Below, piece by piece: positions 55,756 through 63,473 of a stretch of DNA of 64,000 nucleotides. A model generated the notes under the pieces. That model saw nothing but the letters and a program-made list of their open reading frames with translations, did not search any database and had not been told where the DNA came from. The position numbers and the translations under genes were made by a program. Numbering within the stretch: the stretch's first letter is position 1; every line of letters begins with the position of its first letter. Source of the stretch: Candidatus Latescibacterota bacterium (GTDB taxonomy: Bacteria; Latescibacterota; UBA2968); the NCBI GenBank assembly GCA_022823725.1, contig JAJEHL010000024.1:1-64000 (forward strand). Reading direction: 5' to 3'.

Positions 55756-57945
55756 TTACACCAGGCGACCCTCCCGAATTTCCTGCCCATATACCCGCAC
55801 TGTTTGTCCATTTGCGAGAGCTATTTTATTCACCCATCCATCGGCCAACTCCATCGCGCCTGCTTCGGCATCGGTCTCCCCATCAGCAGCGCGTATCCAT
55901 CCTTCACCAGCTTCAGATTGCACAAAATAAAACGCTCTGCCATCGCGCAACGCAATCTGCCCGGCAATCGCAACCCGCCCATTATCGGCCACCGCGGGAA
56001 TGTATTCCACATGTGCTACTGGAGAGACTTCACCCGCCTTTACGGGATATAAAACATAAGACATAAGCGTGGGTCCATCGCCTTCTGCTTTAAAAATTGC
56101 CGTTGGAATCGGTTCGCACTGATAGGGTCCCCCCCGAGGAATCCATCCCTGCACGGTCGGCTCCTCCTGTCCACTTACAATACGCACATCCATCGGCTTT
56201 GTCGAAATGGCATAAATGCCCAGATTGCTCTCTCCCCCATTGTTCTTTGTCATAACACTGCGCCCATTCGCCAGCACCTCGGCATCATCCGCATCCAGAT
56301 GAAACATCGCTTCATACGTATGAGACGCCTCATCCGAGGGCATGAGAATATCCGTCACAATCCAGAACTCCGGTTTCACAAACAAAATCGACCGCGTATG
56401 TGTAACCGTCTGATCCCGGTCTGGTCCATATCCCAAATCGTAACTCGCCGACGCATAATCGCATTTCTCATTTGAAATCCACGTATGCGGCAGCGGCTCG
56501 GACACCACGTAATCCTCCCGCGATTTCCCGCGCTGATTCTGCTCCATCCCATCCACCATCACCGTATTGTGCGCGCGCGTTGACAGCACATAAGTGCGCC
56601 ACTGCGACGAATCATAAGGATAATTCCCCGGATCCACCACATGCACGCGACCGTGTGCGTACAGCATAATATTCAGCTTATCTTCGTGCTGATGCCCATA
56701 GCCAAACGGACCACCGTCAAAAAAGAGATAGAGATCATCCAGTTCCCAGCCCGAACGCATGACAAAATGTCCCGCATAGGGAAAAGCGTACGACAGAGTT
56801 TGCGGCTTTGTTCCTTCAACACGTCCAGAACCCGCCCATTGAAAATCCGTCCGTTCAGGAAAAAACCTGAATCCACCTTGCATGTAAGGCGCGATATCCG
56901 TTTGTCCGCCGTCATTGAGCGCGGGCAAACGCAAATTGGGCATCGCCAGATACAAATTGTAGTGATACATCCGCTCCAATTTTGCGACATAATCTGCCGG
57001 CAGGGGCAAATCATTCAACCGCGCAATCGCGAGCGCCATCACAAAATTTCGCAAACTCACCTGATGATACCCACTCGACAACTCAATCTGCGCGCCATCC
57101 GGATAAACCTGCTCATCCAATTCTTCATACAGCGACTGCATTGCAATCTCACGCCAGCTTGCGGCTTCTTTGAACTCGGGGAACAACGCCCCAACGTGAT
57201 ATTGTCCATTGGCCTGCATCGTCTGCCAGTTGCCACCTCGCGGCCATAGCGTGAGATGCCGCGCGTGCTCGACCATGCTCTTCACCATCAAACACACGTC
57301 GTCATCTCCAAATGTTTCAGACGACAGAAAATAGTAAAACGCCGCAGGCCACGTCTGTCCCATCCGGATCCCACATTCAATCGTGCGCCAGCAATTCGTG
57401 CGATCCGTACCCATCTCTGCATCGTCTTTCCAGGTATTGCCATCCTCACCCACTGGCATCAGCACATGTTCAACCCAGTGCCGCATCTGTCGTCTGAACG
57501 CATCGGCATATTTTTCATCGCCCGTTTTCCAATACGCCTGCCCCAGCGTGACCCAAAACGGATGGCGCGACAACTGCCACGTCCATTCCCTGTAATTAAT
57601 CGGATCCAATTCCCAATTGATTACATCCCCAAACACCTCTTCTACATCGCAACTCACCAGCGTATTTGCCACAATGCGATCGGCCTTTTCGAGATCAACA
57701 TCTCTGATCGCGCGATCTCCCACGCGCACCAACTCGACCTCTGCATCCCGGTCTTGTGGCTCTGACCGATTTCGCCAATCAGAAAACCATCGCGGATATT
57801 CTCGCGTGCGAACGTGTTCTGCAAACGCACGCCGCGCACCCGTCCAATCTCGCGCCTCTACCGCCTTTTTTACAGTCTGCATGTCCGCACGCGACAAATC
57901 GAGCGCCTCAAAAAACGCTTCATCACTCAATCGCGGTCCAATCAT
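55756..57945 (-). CDS. heparinase II/III family polysaccharide lyase-like protein
   Basis: The ATG at 57945 follows GGAGGAAGAC and gives 729 residues. It has an (alpha/alpha) toroid domain in the first half, then a beta-sandwich. The catalytic region shows FGYGHQHEDKLNIMLYAHGR, VVDPGNYPYDSSQWR and HNTVMVDGMEQNQRGKS, all typical of heparinase II/III-like and oligoalginate-like lyases. No clear signal peptide is seen. These enzymes cleave uronate-containing polysaccharides by beta-elimination. The divergent position opposite the dioxygenase cluster suggests a shared regulatory region. Confidence 0.88.
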   Translation of the reverse strand: MIGPRLSDEAFFEALDLSRADMQTVKKAVEARDWTGARRAFAEHVRTREYPRWFSDWRNRSEPQDRDAEVELVRVGDRAIRDVDLEKADRIVANTLVSCDVEEVFGDVINWELDPINYREWTWQLSRHPFWVTLGQAYWKTGDEKYADAFRRQMRHWVEHVLMPVGEDGNTWKDDAEMGTDRTNCWRTIECGIRMGQTWPAAFYYFLSSETFGDDDVCLMVKSMVEHARHLTLWPRGGNWQTMQANGQYHVGALFPEFKEAASWREIAMQSLYEELDEQVYPDGAQIELSSGYHQVSLRNFVMALAIARLNDLPLPADYVAKLERMYHYNLYLAMPNLRLPALNDGGQTDIAPYMQGGFRFFPERTDFQWAGSGRVEGTKPQTLSYAFPYAGHFVMRSGWELDDLYLFFDGGPFGYGHQHEDKLNIMLYAHGRVHVVDPGNYPYDSSQWRTYVLSTRAHNTVMVDGMEQNQRGKSREDYVVSEPLPHTWISNEKCDYASASYDLGYGPDRDQTVTHTRSILFVKPEFWIVTDILMPSDEASHTYEAMFHLDADDAEVLANGRSVMTKNNGGESNLGIYAISTKPMDVRIVSGQEEPTVQGWIPRGGPYQCEPIPTAIFKAEGDGPTLMSYVLYPVKAGEVSPVAHVEYIPAVADNGRVAIAGQIALRDGRAFYFVQSEAGEGWIRAADGETDAEAGAMELADGWVNKIALANGQTVRVYGQEIREGRLV

Positions 57946-58062
57946 GTCTTCCTCCATTTTTATCACTTTTTCCCACAATACTTTATGTCTTCTCTTAAAA
58001 TATCACAATGACACTGCCCTGCCACTATTTTCTGAGCAGGACAAAACCCCCGCGCTTTTTTT

Positions 58063-58106
58063 TTGTATTTCATGTGCGACACACCTATATTGCGCCGCAC
58101 ATGAAA
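58063..58106 (+). promoter_or_regulatory. promoter bracketed by an 11-bp inverted repeat
   Basis: TTGTAT at 58063-58068 and TATATT at 58086-58091 are 17 bases apart. A perfect inverted repeat, TTTCATGTGCG (58068-58078) and CGCACATGAAA (58096-58106), encloses the -10. The right arm ends at the Shine-Dalgarno AAAGGAG (58104-58110) of the downstream dioxygenase. It has the form of an operator for a dimeric repressor, and could also fold in the RNA to hide the ribosome binding site. Confidence 0.65.
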
Positions 58107-58116
58107 GGAGATCGTT

Positions 58117-58914
58117 ATGTTTTGCGACACACAGAAACGGCAGTACAGGAAGCAGGGGTTTTTTATTGTCGATGACGCCGTTGATCCCGATATGCTAAAA
58201 CCTTTGTTGGAAGCTGCGATTCGCACAAAAAAAAAGGTGCGTTCAGGCGAAGTAGATTTGTACACCCACCGCTCGGAGGACGGCGAACCCTGGGCGATTC
58301 GCGGGTTATTTTCCCCCGAGATGAACGAGCCGATTTTTGCCGAATATCTGATGTCAGAACCCATAATGAAATACACGCACGCATTCTTAGGCACACAGCT
58401 ACAATTGGGAGGCGCGCTCATCTTCACAAATCCATATCAAGCGGATTACGGTTTTGGCTGGCACCGGGATTTTGGGGGTAAGGAACGTGACGGGTCGTAT
58501 CAGATAGAAATGGAAATTTTGAATCGTCCCCAAAGGGGTTTGAGGTGGCATCTCGCACTGGTAGATGATTATTGTTTGCAAATTGTGCCCGGCAGCCACA
58601 AAAGGTACCGCACCCCCCACGAACGCAGGTGCTTGTTGGAAGAACGCCACGACAATATCCCGGGACAGTATGCCGTGCCCCTCAAAGCTGGACAAACCGC
58701 ATTTTGGACTGGCAATTTGATTCACCGCGGAGTAATGAAAAAGGATGTGGAGCGATTGACCCTGTCCGGAAGCTGGAGTATGTACTCAAAGGATGGCAAG
58801 CCCGGCGAGACAGACCCGCGCCTGAAGTGGATGCTGGCGGACAATGTGCGCGAATTTTTGCCAAAAGAAATGCGCCCATTATACGACCGATGGCGGGTAT
58901 TGCAAAAGGGGTAA
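58117..58914 (+). CDS. phytanoyl-CoA dioxygenase (PhyH) family protein
   Basis: The 265-residue Fe(II)/2-oxoglutarate oxygenase has H116-R-D118 in FGWHRDFGG, using Arg rather than Gln between the ligands. The distal ligand is H203 in GNLIHRGVMKKD. AAAGGAG lies six bases before the ATG. It is the first gene after the repeat-flanked promoter and precedes the enolase-superfamily gene by 18 bases, so it probably takes part in the same catabolic pathway. Substrate unknown. Confidence 0.9.
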   Translation: MFCDTQKRQYRKQGFFIVDDAVDPDMLKPLLEAAIRTKKKVRSGEVDLYTHRSEDGEPWAIRGLFSPEMNEPIFAEYLMSEPIMKYTHAFLGTQLQLGGALIFTNPYQADYGFGWHRDFGGKERDGSYQIEMEILNRPQRGLRWHLALVDDYCLQIVPGSHKRYRTPHERRCLLEERHDNIPGQYAVPLKAGQTAFWTGNLIHRGVMKKDVERLTLSGSWSMYSKDGKPGETDPRLKWMLADNVREFLPKEMRPLYDRWRVLQKG

Positions 58915-58932: not shown

Positions 58933-60045
58933 ATGAAAATTACCCATATTGAAGCCATTCATTTGCGACTGCCAGAAGTTGTAGAGGCAGCCGATGGGAC
59001 TCAGGACTGCCTGATCGTGCGGGTGCATACCGATGAGGGCATAACGGGATTGGGTGAAGTCGTATCGTGTTCCTATGTAGCCAAAGCCGTAATAGAAGCA
59101 CCGCGCTCTGCGCCATTTCGCCACGGCCTATCGGCGATCGTAACCGGCATGGACGCGCTGGATTTTGACGCCATTCACAACGCCATGATCGAAGGCGTAT
59201 CCTGGTATGGTCCAGGCGGCGTGGCGCGACAGGCCATGAGTGGCATTGACATGGCACTGTGGGATATTCGAGGGAAAGCCGAAGGCAAGCCCGTGCGCAA
59301 GCTATTGCGAGAAAATGCTGCAGATGCAGTGCCCGCTTATGCCAGCGTCCTGTGGCCCGAGCGTCCGGAATTGGTAAAGGAAACCGCCAGCGCATTTTTG
59401 GCACAGGATTATCAATCTGTAAAATACGGTTGGGCGCCAATGGGACCAGACGCAGATTTAGACGAAGCACTGGTCGCTGCCGCACGAGAGGCTTTGGGAC
59501 CAGATGTAAATTTGATGGTGGATGCTGGTCGCGCGTGGGATGCGGAAACAGCGCTGGAGCGCGTGGCGAGATTTAAAAAACACAATGTATTCTGGCTCGA
59601 GGAGCCATTGCACCCATTTGATGTGCAGGGATATGGCGAACTCTCAACACAGTCAGCCATACCAATTGCAGGTGGCGAAGCAATGACTCTGGTAAGCGAA
59701 TACGCCGACTTGTTGCACAATGGCAAACTCCACTTTGTACAACCCGATCTGGGGCGCGTAGGCGGAATTACCGGCGGCCTGGCAATTGAAAAACTGGCAA
59801 AAGAGACGGGCGCGCGCGCCGTACCTCACGCATTTGGCACCGGGGTCTTATTGGCAGCATCTGCCCAATGGGCCGCAGCGAGCGAACAGCCTCTGACAGA
59901 ATACACGCGAGCACCATCTCCCCTGGCGCAAAAACTCGCCCAACACGAGATGGCATTTCGAAATGGCGCGCTACATCTGACAGACCAACCCGGACTGGGC
60001 GTAGATCTGGACGAAGATGTGGTGGCGGAGTTCCGGGTAATGTAG
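58933..60045 (+). CDS. mandelate racemase/muconate lactonizing enzyme family protein
   Basis: The 370-residue enolase-superfamily enzyme has the base K164 (SVKYGWAPMG), the metal ligands starting with D197 (MVDAGRAWD) and then LEEPLHPFD, and the distal base H299 (VPHAFGTG). These features match the sugar-acid dehydratase and racemase branch. A 2-keto-3-deoxy product would suit the FAH-family hydrolase in the same cluster. GGCCGTAAAAGGTAAGAT precedes the ATG. Product identity needs biochemical proof. Confidence 0.9.
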   Translation: MKITHIEAIHLRLPEVVEAADGTQDCLIVRVHTDEGITGLGEVVSCSYVAKAVIEAPRSAPFRHGLSAIVTGMDALDFDAIHNAMIEGVSWYGPGGVARQAMSGIDMALWDIRGKAEGKPVRKLLRENAADAVPAYASVLWPERPELVKETASAFLAQDYQSVKYGWAPMGPDADLDEALVAAAREALGPDVNLMVDAGRAWDAETALERVARFKKHNVFWLEEPLHPFDVQGYGELSTQSAIPIAGGEAMTLVSEYADLLHNGKLHFVQPDLGRVGGITGGLAIEKLAKETGARAVPHAFGTGVLLAASAQWAAASEQPLTEYTRAPSPLAQKLAQHEMAFRNGALHLTDQPGLGVDLDEDVVAEFRVM

Positions 60046-60113: not shown

Positions 60114-60977
60114 ATGGCCTCTGTAAAAGATATCTACAAATTTGACGAACTGACCTGGCCCGAAGTGAATGAAGCGGTGGAAATGGGAAAAATTCCGATT
60201 ATTCCAACCGGCGCAGTCGAACAGCACGGGCATCACTTGCCCCTGAAAGTTGATCATCTGTGTGCCAATGCTGTGGCGACCGAAGGCGCGCGCCTAAAAC
60301 CGGAATACAGCCTGGTGCTACCGCCCGTGAGTTATGGCTACGTGCATCACGTCATGGATTTTCCTGGGTCACTGAATATACACTACGAACACTTCATTCA
60401 GTATCTGCTGGACATTTGCAAAAGTCTTGCCTATCACGGCTTTAAGAAAATGATCCTCGTCAACGGACACGGTTCCAACCACAATCTGGTCGAAATGGTC
60501 GCCCGGCGCACAATCGTAGAAACAGACGCGAGTTGCGCTTTCTGTTCGTGGTGGCAATTGCTCAAAGTCGATCCGGACTTTGACAAAGAATGGCGCGAGA
60601 GCGTATTTCCCGGCGGGTGTTCGCATGCGGGCGAGTTGGAAACGTCCATGTTGCTCCACTTGTCTCCGGAAAGCGTGCGCAAGGATAAAATCAAGAGCGA
60701 AATTGCCAGGACCAATAAACGGGGATCCAAATTCGTCTGGACCGATCTGTTCAGCAGAGGACCTGTGGGCATAATTGAATGGACGAGTCAATATACGGAT
60801 TCGGGCGTGATGGGCGAGGCGGAAAAGGCAACCGCAGAAAAGGGCAAAATTGTGTTTGAAGAAGCGAGCAAGAATCTGGCGCAATTCGTCGAAGAATATT
60901 ATCATCAAAAGATCGAAACCCCCACGCAAAATCAGGCACAAGAACCGACATTTCCATTATCATTTACCAGTCATTAG
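60114..60977 (+). CDS. creatininase family amidohydrolase
   Basis: The 287-residue protein has metal-binding residues as in creatininases: PTGAVEQHGHHLPLKVDHLC (E36, H38, D47), then NGHGSNHNLVEMV and GGCSHAGELETSMLL. Members cleave cyclic or linear amides, including creatinine and N-formyl or mycofactocin-type substrates. A role in opening an amidated sugar acid is possible. AGAAAGGTAAAAAA precedes the ATG. It lies between the enolase-superfamily and FAH-family genes. Confidence 0.88.
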   Translation: MASVKDIYKFDELTWPEVNEAVEMGKIPIIPTGAVEQHGHHLPLKVDHLCANAVATEGARLKPEYSLVLPPVSYGYVHHVMDFPGSLNIHYEHFIQYLLDICKSLAYHGFKKMILVNGHGSNHNLVEMVARRTIVETDASCAFCSWWQLLKVDPDFDKEWRESVFPGGCSHAGELETSMLLHLSPESVRKDKIKSEIARTNKRGSKFVWTDLFSRGPVGIIEWTSQYTDSGVMGEAEKATAEKGKIVFEEASKNLAQFVEEYYHQKIETPTQNQAQEPTFPLSFTSH

Positions 60978-60998: not shown

Positions 60999-61961
60999 AT
61001 GAAACTCGCGACTTATTCAGTCGGCGGACAAGAATCCATTGGCGCAGTCGTCGCAGATGACACGATTGTTGTCGATCTCGCCGCAGCAGGCAGAGCATTG
61101 GCTCAATCAGAAAACCCTCCCTTTTTTACGGATATGCTAACCCTTCTCGAAGCCGGAGCAGAGGGCCAATCTGCGGCACAACAGGCTGTGGCTGATGTCG
61201 AAAAGCGTTTGAATGGCACACCAGATGGCGAGACCAGCTTTGCCGTCAGCGAAGTCAAATTGAACGCACCAGTACCCAATCCGCGCAAATTATTCTGCCT
61301 GGCGGGTAATTATCAGGATCACATTGAAGAAGGCGGAACGGCCAAGATGCAAATTCAGGACAAGGAAACCCCGCGCGTGTTTATGAAGCCCCCAACATCA
61401 ACTGTAATCGGGCCAGGCGATCAAATTTTGATCCCCCCCATCGCAAGAAGCGTAGATTGGGAAGGCGAACTGGCTGTCGTAATAGGCCGAGAGGCAAAGG
61501 GCGTACAAGCAGAAGATGCGCTGGACTACGTCGCGGGTTATACGGTCATGAATGATGTTTCCGAGCGCACGTTGGAAATTAAAAAACGCACAGATAGCCG
61601 CCCAAGAGATGAATGGTTTGACTGGTTAAACGGCAAATGGCTGGACACCTTTGCGCCCCAGGGACCGTGGATTGTAACTTCAGATGAAATCACAGATCCA
61701 CACACCCTCGACATCAGCACGTATGTGAACGGCGACCGCAAACAGCACAACAACACGGGACAAATGTTGTATCCCGTGGATAAAATTATCGAATACATCT
61801 CGGCGATTATCACACTCGAACCGGGCGATCTGATCAGCACAGGTACAATTTCGGGCGTAGGTAATACAACGGGAACCTATATGCAACCGGGCGATACGGT
61901 AGAAATTGAGATCTCGGGCATTGGACGATTGGTAAATACAGTAGCTGCAAGTGAGAAATAG
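60999..61961 (+). CDS. fumarylacetoacetate hydrolase (FAH) family protein
   Basis: The 320-residue protein has the FAH pattern: KLFCLAGNYQDHIEEGGTAK, VDWEGELAVVIGREAKGVQA, and GYTVMNDVSERTLEIKKRTD. Metal-binding Glu and Asp residues lie in the E/D-rich loops. FAH-family enzymes hydrolyse diketo and hydroxyketo acids, among them 2,4-diketo-3-deoxy sugar acids. TAAGGAGAAAAC precedes the ATG. It is the last gene of the cluster before a hairpin and the sulfatase. Confidence 0.9.
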   Translation: MKLATYSVGGQESIGAVVADDTIVVDLAAAGRALAQSENPPFFTDMLTLLEAGAEGQSAAQQAVADVEKRLNGTPDGETSFAVSEVKLNAPVPNPRKLFCLAGNYQDHIEEGGTAKMQIQDKETPRVFMKPPTSTVIGPGDQILIPPIARSVDWEGELAVVIGREAKGVQAEDALDYVAGYTVMNDVSERTLEIKKRTDSRPRDEWFDWLNGKWLDTFAPQGPWIVTSDEITDPHTLDISTYVNGDRKQHNNTGQMLYPVDKIIEYISAIITLEPGDLISTGTISGVGNTTGTYMQPGDTVEIEISGIGRLVNTVAASEK

Positions 61962-62045: not shown

Positions 62046-63473
62046 ATGGACCGACCAAACTTGCTCTACATCCACTCAGATCAACACAGCCCAAAAGTGC
62101 TCGGCTGCTATGGCGACCCACTCGTTCAAACGCCCCATCTGGATGCCCTCGCTGCACGGGGCATAATATTTAACAATGCCTATTGCCCATCGCCTGTATG
62201 CACGCCATCGCGGATGTCGATGCTAACCGGACGGTATCCGTATGAAAATGAAGTGTGGACAAACCATCACATCCTGGATTCGGGACGACCAACAATCGCG
62301 CATGCAATGGGCGCGGCGGGCTACCGTCCCGTACTCACAGGGCGAATGCATGCCCTGGGCACAGACCAGTTGCACGGGTATGTGGATCGTCCCATTGGAG
62401 ATCATTCTTCGAATTACCCGGGCACAGGCGACGCTCCCAGCAACTTAATCCAATCGGTTCAAAAATCAGGTGCGGGCCAGAGCAGTTACGAAGTACACGA
62501 TGAAGATGTAACAGCGGCAGCAATTGATTTTATCAATCGAGAGGGCATAAAAAAACGCAGTGGACAAACGGATACCCCCTTTTGCTTGCATGTGGGATAT
62601 ATACTGCCACACTCGCCGTACATTGCGCGAAAAGCAGACTACGATCAGTACATCGATGTGATTACGCCGCCAAAACATCCCAAACCAACAGGCGATGAGT
62701 CGCATCCCTTTTTTCAATGGTGGCGCGAACGGAATCGTTTTGGGGAAATTGAAGATACTGATACCACGCGCGCCCGCGCAGCTTACTGGGCACTGGTCAC
62801 AGCGATGGATCGCCTGATCGGACAACTTTTGGAGGCATTAGAACGGAATGGATTTACAAAAAACACAATGATCGTATATTCATCAGACCACGGCGAACAG
62901 GTGGGGGAAAAAGCACTGTGGATGAAGCGAACATTTTACGAAGAATCCGTTCGAGTACCGGCAATTATTTCATGGCCCGATGTGCTGCCCAAAGGACAGG
63001 TCAACAACCGCGTCATCAGCGCATTGGACTTAAATGCAACCATGCTCGACGCATTGAACGCACCCGAATTGCCCTATTCCCGCGGGCGCAGCCTGTTGCC
63101 ATTGCTGCGCGGTGAGGCAGATACCTGGGAAGATATTGCCTTTTCAGAATACTGTATCTACGAAGGCCATTACCAGCGCATGATTCGACAAGACGAATGG
63201 AAACTGATTTACTATCACGGCTATGATCCGCAATTATTCAATCTATCCGAAGATCCTGAAGAATTGCACAATCGGGCGGGCGACGAAGATTGTCGGGCGA
63301 TTCAAGAAGAACTAACAGCAAAAGTACTGGATGGCTGGGATCCGGAGTGGGTCGCACAAAAGATGCTGGAAAAAAGAAGGGATCTGGAGATCATTCGGGA
63401 ATGGGCAAGCGCGACAAATGCACCTGAGCAATGCCAGTGGCCTCAAACCCCAGGGATGACATATCTGGAATAA
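62046..63473 (+). CDS. sulfatase family hydrolase (CTPSR signature)
   Basis: The 475-residue protein has the formylglycine signature C52-T-P-S-R56 followed by MLTG. Metal motifs are HSDQHSPKVLG near residue 10 and YSSDHGEQVGEKALW in the second half. No signal peptide is visible. AAAAGGACTCAAAC precedes the ATG. It follows the FAH-family gene by 84 bases with a hairpin between, so it may be transcribed separately. A sulfated sugar acid would fit the neighbouring lyase and dehydratase. Confidence 0.9.
   Translation: MDRPNLLYIHSDQHSPKVLGCYGDPLVQTPHLDALAARGIIFNNAYCPSPVCTPSRMSMLTGRYPYENEVWTNHHILDSGRPTIAHAMGAAGYRPVLTGRMHALGTDQLHGYVDRPIGDHSSNYPGTGDAPSNLIQSVQKSGAGQSSYEVHDEDVTAAAIDFINREGIKKRSGQTDTPFCLHVGYILPHSPYIARKADYDQYIDVITPPKHPKPTGDESHPFFQWWRERNRFGEIEDTDTTRARAAYWALVTAMDRLIGQLLEALERNGFTKNTMIVYSSDHGEQVGEKALWMKRTFYEESVRVPAIISWPDVLPKGQVNNRVISALDLNATMLDALNAPELPYSRGRSLLPLLRGEADTWEDIAFSEYCIYEGHYQRMIRQDEWKLIYYHGYDPQLFNLSEDPEELHNRAGDEDCRAIQEELTAKVLDGWDPEWVAQKMLEKRRDLEIIREWASATNAPEQCQWPQTPGMTYLE

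Follow-up and report, generated by a model that had tools for sequence, protein, structure and literature searches.

The 64,000-nucleotide stretch of Candidatus Latescibacterota DNA analysed here (the window) contains an intergenic region, between a heparinase II/III-like lyase gene and a divergent catabolic gene cluster, in which a predicted promoter is overlaid by a perfect inverted repeat. The genes and intergenic features are the following.

55756-57945, minus strand: divergent heparinase II/III-like lyase gene (PF16889, PF07940), its start set at the ATG near 57945, after GGAGG, a choice made from the sequence
58060-58070, plus strand: invariant block TTTTTGTATTT with the -35-like hexamer TTGTAT (58063-58068); no changes in ten species
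58068-58078, plus strand: left arm of the inverted repeat, TTTCATGTGCG, present in this genome and the sister species G005 only
58071-58078, plus strand: hypervariable 8-bp block in the -35/-10 spacer, forming the bulk of the left arm; it reads CATGTGCG in this genome, and most relatives have a GCCGCGCG-like sequence
58079-58096, plus strand: invariant 18-bp block ACACACCTATATTGCGCC with the -10-like hexamer TATATT (58086-58091) and a GC-rich discriminator
58096-58106, plus strand: right arm, CGCACATGAAA, overlapping the predicted transcription start and the first Shine-Dalgarno base; conserved in the alignment except at two positions
58106-58110, plus strand: Shine-Dalgarno sequence AGGAG, conserved in the genus
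58117-58914, plus strand: PhyH-family (Fe(II)/2-oxoglutarate dioxygenase-like) gene, the first after the promoter, with its ATG at 58117 (Pfam PF05721, E 2.9e-10)
58933-60045, plus strand: enolase-superfamily (mandelate racemase/muconate lactonizing) gene (PF13378, PF02746)
60114-60977, plus strand: creatininase-family amidohydrolase gene (PF02633)
60999-61961, plus strand: fumarylacetoacetate-hydrolase-family (FAH) gene (PF01557)
62046-63473, plus strand: sulfatase gene (PF00884)

The preliminary description of this region had placed the promoter between divergent polysaccharide-lyase and sugar-acid genes with no regulator nearby. The lyase is indeed of the heparinase II/III type, but the first gene downstream is the PhyH-family gene, and the sugar-acid dehydratase-like gene of the enolase superfamily comes only second. 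No regulator gene was found among the larger open reading frames from 36 kb to the end of the window at 64 kb (small ones were covered in part), as had been proposed. The nearest regulator found when 20 kb beyond the window were scanned is a single TetR-family gene about 23 kb from the site, and no link between this gene and the inverted repeat was found.

Read directly from the sequence, the two arms match perfectly over 11 bp, are 17 bp apart and enclose TATATT, which lies 17 bp downstream of TTGTAT, and the right arm extends just to the first A of AGGAG, all as originally described. If two mismatches are allowed the arms lengthen to 16 nt around a loop of 7 nt. A perfect or near-perfect dyad at a promoter is what would be expected of an operator, and the likeness to palindromic repressor operators is clear, with perfect arms flanking the -10. 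The arrangement had been considered hard to get by chance. To put it into context, we counted perfect inverted repeats whose arms reach 11 bp or more and whose loops span 3-40 nt, and found 24 in 400 kb of another contig of the same genome (C2) and two in the window. Eighteen of the 24 fall outside open reading frames of at least 200 aa, i.e., within about 51 kb of non-coding DNA, an abundance that does not bear out the supposed rarity, and four of these 18 have loops of at least 12 nt. Many of the short-loop repeats of C2 look like terminators. Such a repeat is uncommon in any one given intergenic region; summed over all of them, the genome should contain many.

A way to separate the promoter from the repeat that overlies it is to compare the orthologous intergenic region, which is present in the genus. 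The promoter region could be aligned without gaps over ten species, and changes were counted by parsimony on a tree of the lyase and PhyH genes. No changes fall in 58060-58070 or 58079-58096, three fall in the right arm (58096-58106) and 16 in the eight positions of 58071-58078, compared with an intergenic mean of 0.58 changes per base, which places the left-arm block among the fastest 8-bp windows of the region. The three longest stretches without a single change are 58079-58096, with 18 bp, and 58060-58070 and 57997-58007, with 11 bp each. The third, invariant in the ten species and located inside CTTAAAATATCACAATGACACTG, probably belongs to the promoter of the divergent lyase gene. Two unchanged hexamer blocks separated by a freely varying gap are the footprint of a promoter.

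Hexamers of this type are common upstream of genes in this genome. The pattern TTGNNN-(16-18)-TANNNT was found in 29 of 107 upstream regions versus 12 +/- 3 in shuffles, and its commonest spacing was 17 bp; the Bacteroidetes-type promoter TTTG-N-TAnnTTTG showed no enrichment (0 of 107 regions). Our consensus scan had a threshold of 9 of 12 matching positions; TTGTAT/TATATT is below it, hence the site was not listed. The locus thus agrees with a sigma70-type promoter in its TTG at -35, its TAnnnT at -10, a spacing of 17 bp (within the usual 16-18 bp), a position conserved across the genus and a start-site leader carrying a Shine-Dalgarno sequence, and the promoter proposed in the preliminary description is supported. 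It differs from a typical one in the weak -35 hexamer, TTGTAT within a T-tract, and in the unusually good conservation around the -10. From these features we infer that transcription starts near 58097-58099, that the housekeeping sigma factor recognises the promoter and that the five genes from PhyH to the sulfatase are co-transcribed; the promoter would then drive the whole PhyH, enolase-superfamily, creatininase, FAH and sulfatase cluster. If the start lies some 7 bp beyond TATATT, the leader would begin with the right arm and the left arm would be untranscribed, and the right arm would be conserved independently of the left for this very reason.

The flanks of the -10, ACACACC and GCGCC, are conserved beyond the needs of sigma70 recognition alone, and another protein may therefore contact them. 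In its strongest form, this would make the whole 18-bp block ACACACCTATATTGCGCC the binding site of a regulator besides RNA polymerase, and the inverted repeat would be irrelevant. We consider this unlikely. The block is the longest unchanged intergenic run and reaches past the -10 on both sides, but it is not a dyad and does not recur at other promoters: its best other matches in the genome carry two to three mismatches, and none of 20 match contexts read one by one had a shared promoter layout. The ACACA part is, moreover, lost in the relative G008, whose two diverged copies retain CCTATATTGC and the T-tract, without the repeat. Both PhyH copies of G008 also carry some 60-70 bp of inserted DNA (GTAGGGGCGGTGCCCCCGTGCCCGCCC-like), which separates the promoter from the Shine-Dalgarno sequence.

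The conservation of the repeat in related genomes had been set beforehand as a test of the operator, and outside the sister species it is absent. Among 60 genomes searched, which comprise every one of the 11 in the genus, the exact repeat (gap 10-24) occurs only in this one and G005, while the nine other members of the genus have the promoter with a left arm that is not complementary; no match appeared among the plasmid records searched. The left-arm block, CATGTGCG in both sisters, reads GCCGCGCG, GCCGCGCA, GCTGCGCA, GCTGCGCG, GTCGCGCG, GCGACGCA or ACAGTGAG elsewhere. The two genomes are sisters with 100/100 support in the lyase plus PhyH tree, and their identity is about 96%. The PhyH gene alone did not resolve the pair, the two genes together did, and a tree including the downstream DNA was perturbed by rearranged flanks. 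A covariation test of the stem gave no support either. Two of its pairs are unpaired in nine of the ten distinct sequences, and a control slid by three columns pairs as well as the stem itself (65.7% versus 63.0%).

The picture within the genome is similar. A search for the same arms had been suggested as a pointer to co-regulated genes, and it turned up no second exact site in the 5.3 Mb. Pairs resembling the arms with up to three mismatches number 41, versus 16 for a reversed control, and all of them except 58068-58106 itself carry two to three mismatches (the 16 innermost arm positions were compared). These 41 sites, whose excess was gauged against the reversed control, were not regarded as a regulon. 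An operator might also be expected to adjoin a regulator gene, and none closer than the TetR-family gene was found. The operator of a single-target repressor encoded elsewhere, on the other hand, need not recur. A genuine lineage-specific operator of that kind, acquired by the common ancestor of the two sister species, would account for perfect arms that are symmetric about the -10 and the same in both species. We regard it as very improbable, with a single exact site in the genome, the complementary arm missing in nine other members of the genus, the left arm lying within one of the fastest-evolving stretches and no adjoining regulator gene found. The locus departs in all these respects from known palindromic operators over a -10, and the repressor operator of the preliminary description, confined as it is to two sister species and lacking support from covariation, is not borne out by the comparison.

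The arms could alternatively pair in the RNA and mask the Shine-Dalgarno sequence. The stretch does fold at -16.1 kcal/mol and the right arm adjoins AGGAG, but the fold is only modestly better than that of shuffled sequences (z = -1.8), the pairing is not maintained in the relatives, and the left arm would be absent from the transcript of the TTGTAT-TATATT promoter, whose predicted start is downstream of that arm. Such a hairpin is hardly credible.

The reading that we favour, with good confidence, is that of an ordinary sigma70-type promoter in which the inverted repeat is not an operator but an accidental, probably recent complementarity in a spacer that is free to vary; most likely the repeat has no function. 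The right arm would correspond to the conserved leader, with its start site and Shine-Dalgarno sequence, and the left arm to 8 bp of unconstrained promoter spacer that turned complementary to the right arm in the ancestor of this species and G005. Besides the strong conservation of the flanks of the -10, two observations sit less comfortably with this. The repeat is identical in both sisters, although at about 96% identity 8 bp are little informative, and the -35 hexamer is weak for an ordinary promoter.

How the perfect repeat arose is a separate question. Of the 11 positions of the arms, 4-8 are paired in the relatives, which makes a quasipalindrome, and all 11 in this species and G005. Relative to the closest-looking relatives, the lineage of the two sisters shows three to four clustered changes, each of which creates pairing; they are placed on the branch of the two sister species, with no intermediate genome in the set. 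The conversion of quasipalindromes into perfect ones by template switching has been documented in E. coli (PMC7202029), and an imperfect repeat in the relatives that became exact in one lineage, through changes clustered in one arm, is what that process would leave behind. The right arm would have been copied onto a left arm that was already partly complementary. The difference is that in our case the event is deduced from a comparison of species and was not observed as a mutation. Other lineages accumulated up to four changes in the same 8-bp block and formed no palindrome, and the site was singled out precisely for being palindromic, which makes stepwise substitution, in our view, about as likely as a template switch. 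That such a switch created, in one step and in the free spacer of a conserved promoter, a new repressor operator that gives the two sisters a regulation the rest of the genus lacks seems to us highly improbable. If the repeat were functional in its two species, the emergence of an operator could be traced at this locus. Seen in one genome, a perfect inverted repeat that spans a promoter is weak evidence for an operator, and here it took ten species to tell the conserved promoter from the repeat lying over it.

Two other elements were noticed in the genus. At about 69029-69044 of contig C5 of the same genome there is a strong promoter, TTGACA-16-TATATT, whose -10 is centred in a perfect 10-bp dyad, TTAACACAAC-TATATT-GTTGTGTTAA. 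It lies upstream of two open reading frames, the second with a stretch that, judged by eye, is HTH-like, and it is absent from the other genomes of the genus. This dyad is a better operator candidate than the repeat at 58068-58106. The other element, TCATCGCGGCaGGnTTnAGCCGCGATCCAGAAGGTTTT, is a hairpin about 40-50 nt long that is scattered over intergenic DNA. The 400 kb at positions 1-400000 of contig C2 contain 41 copies and the window none; 40 of the 41 are on one strand, whichever way the neighbouring genes point. The relative G007 (complete, 6.53 Mb) has 150 copies with at most two mismatches. The best 100 of these 150 lie predominantly on the plus strand between about 0.28 and 1.3 Mb, and predominantly on the minus strand in the arc that begins at about 5.2 Mb and continues through the end of the sequence to 0.32 Mb. 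The switch of strand falls near dnaA (379 kb) and near a change in GC skew, a distribution that suggests a replichore-polar element clustered around the origin.
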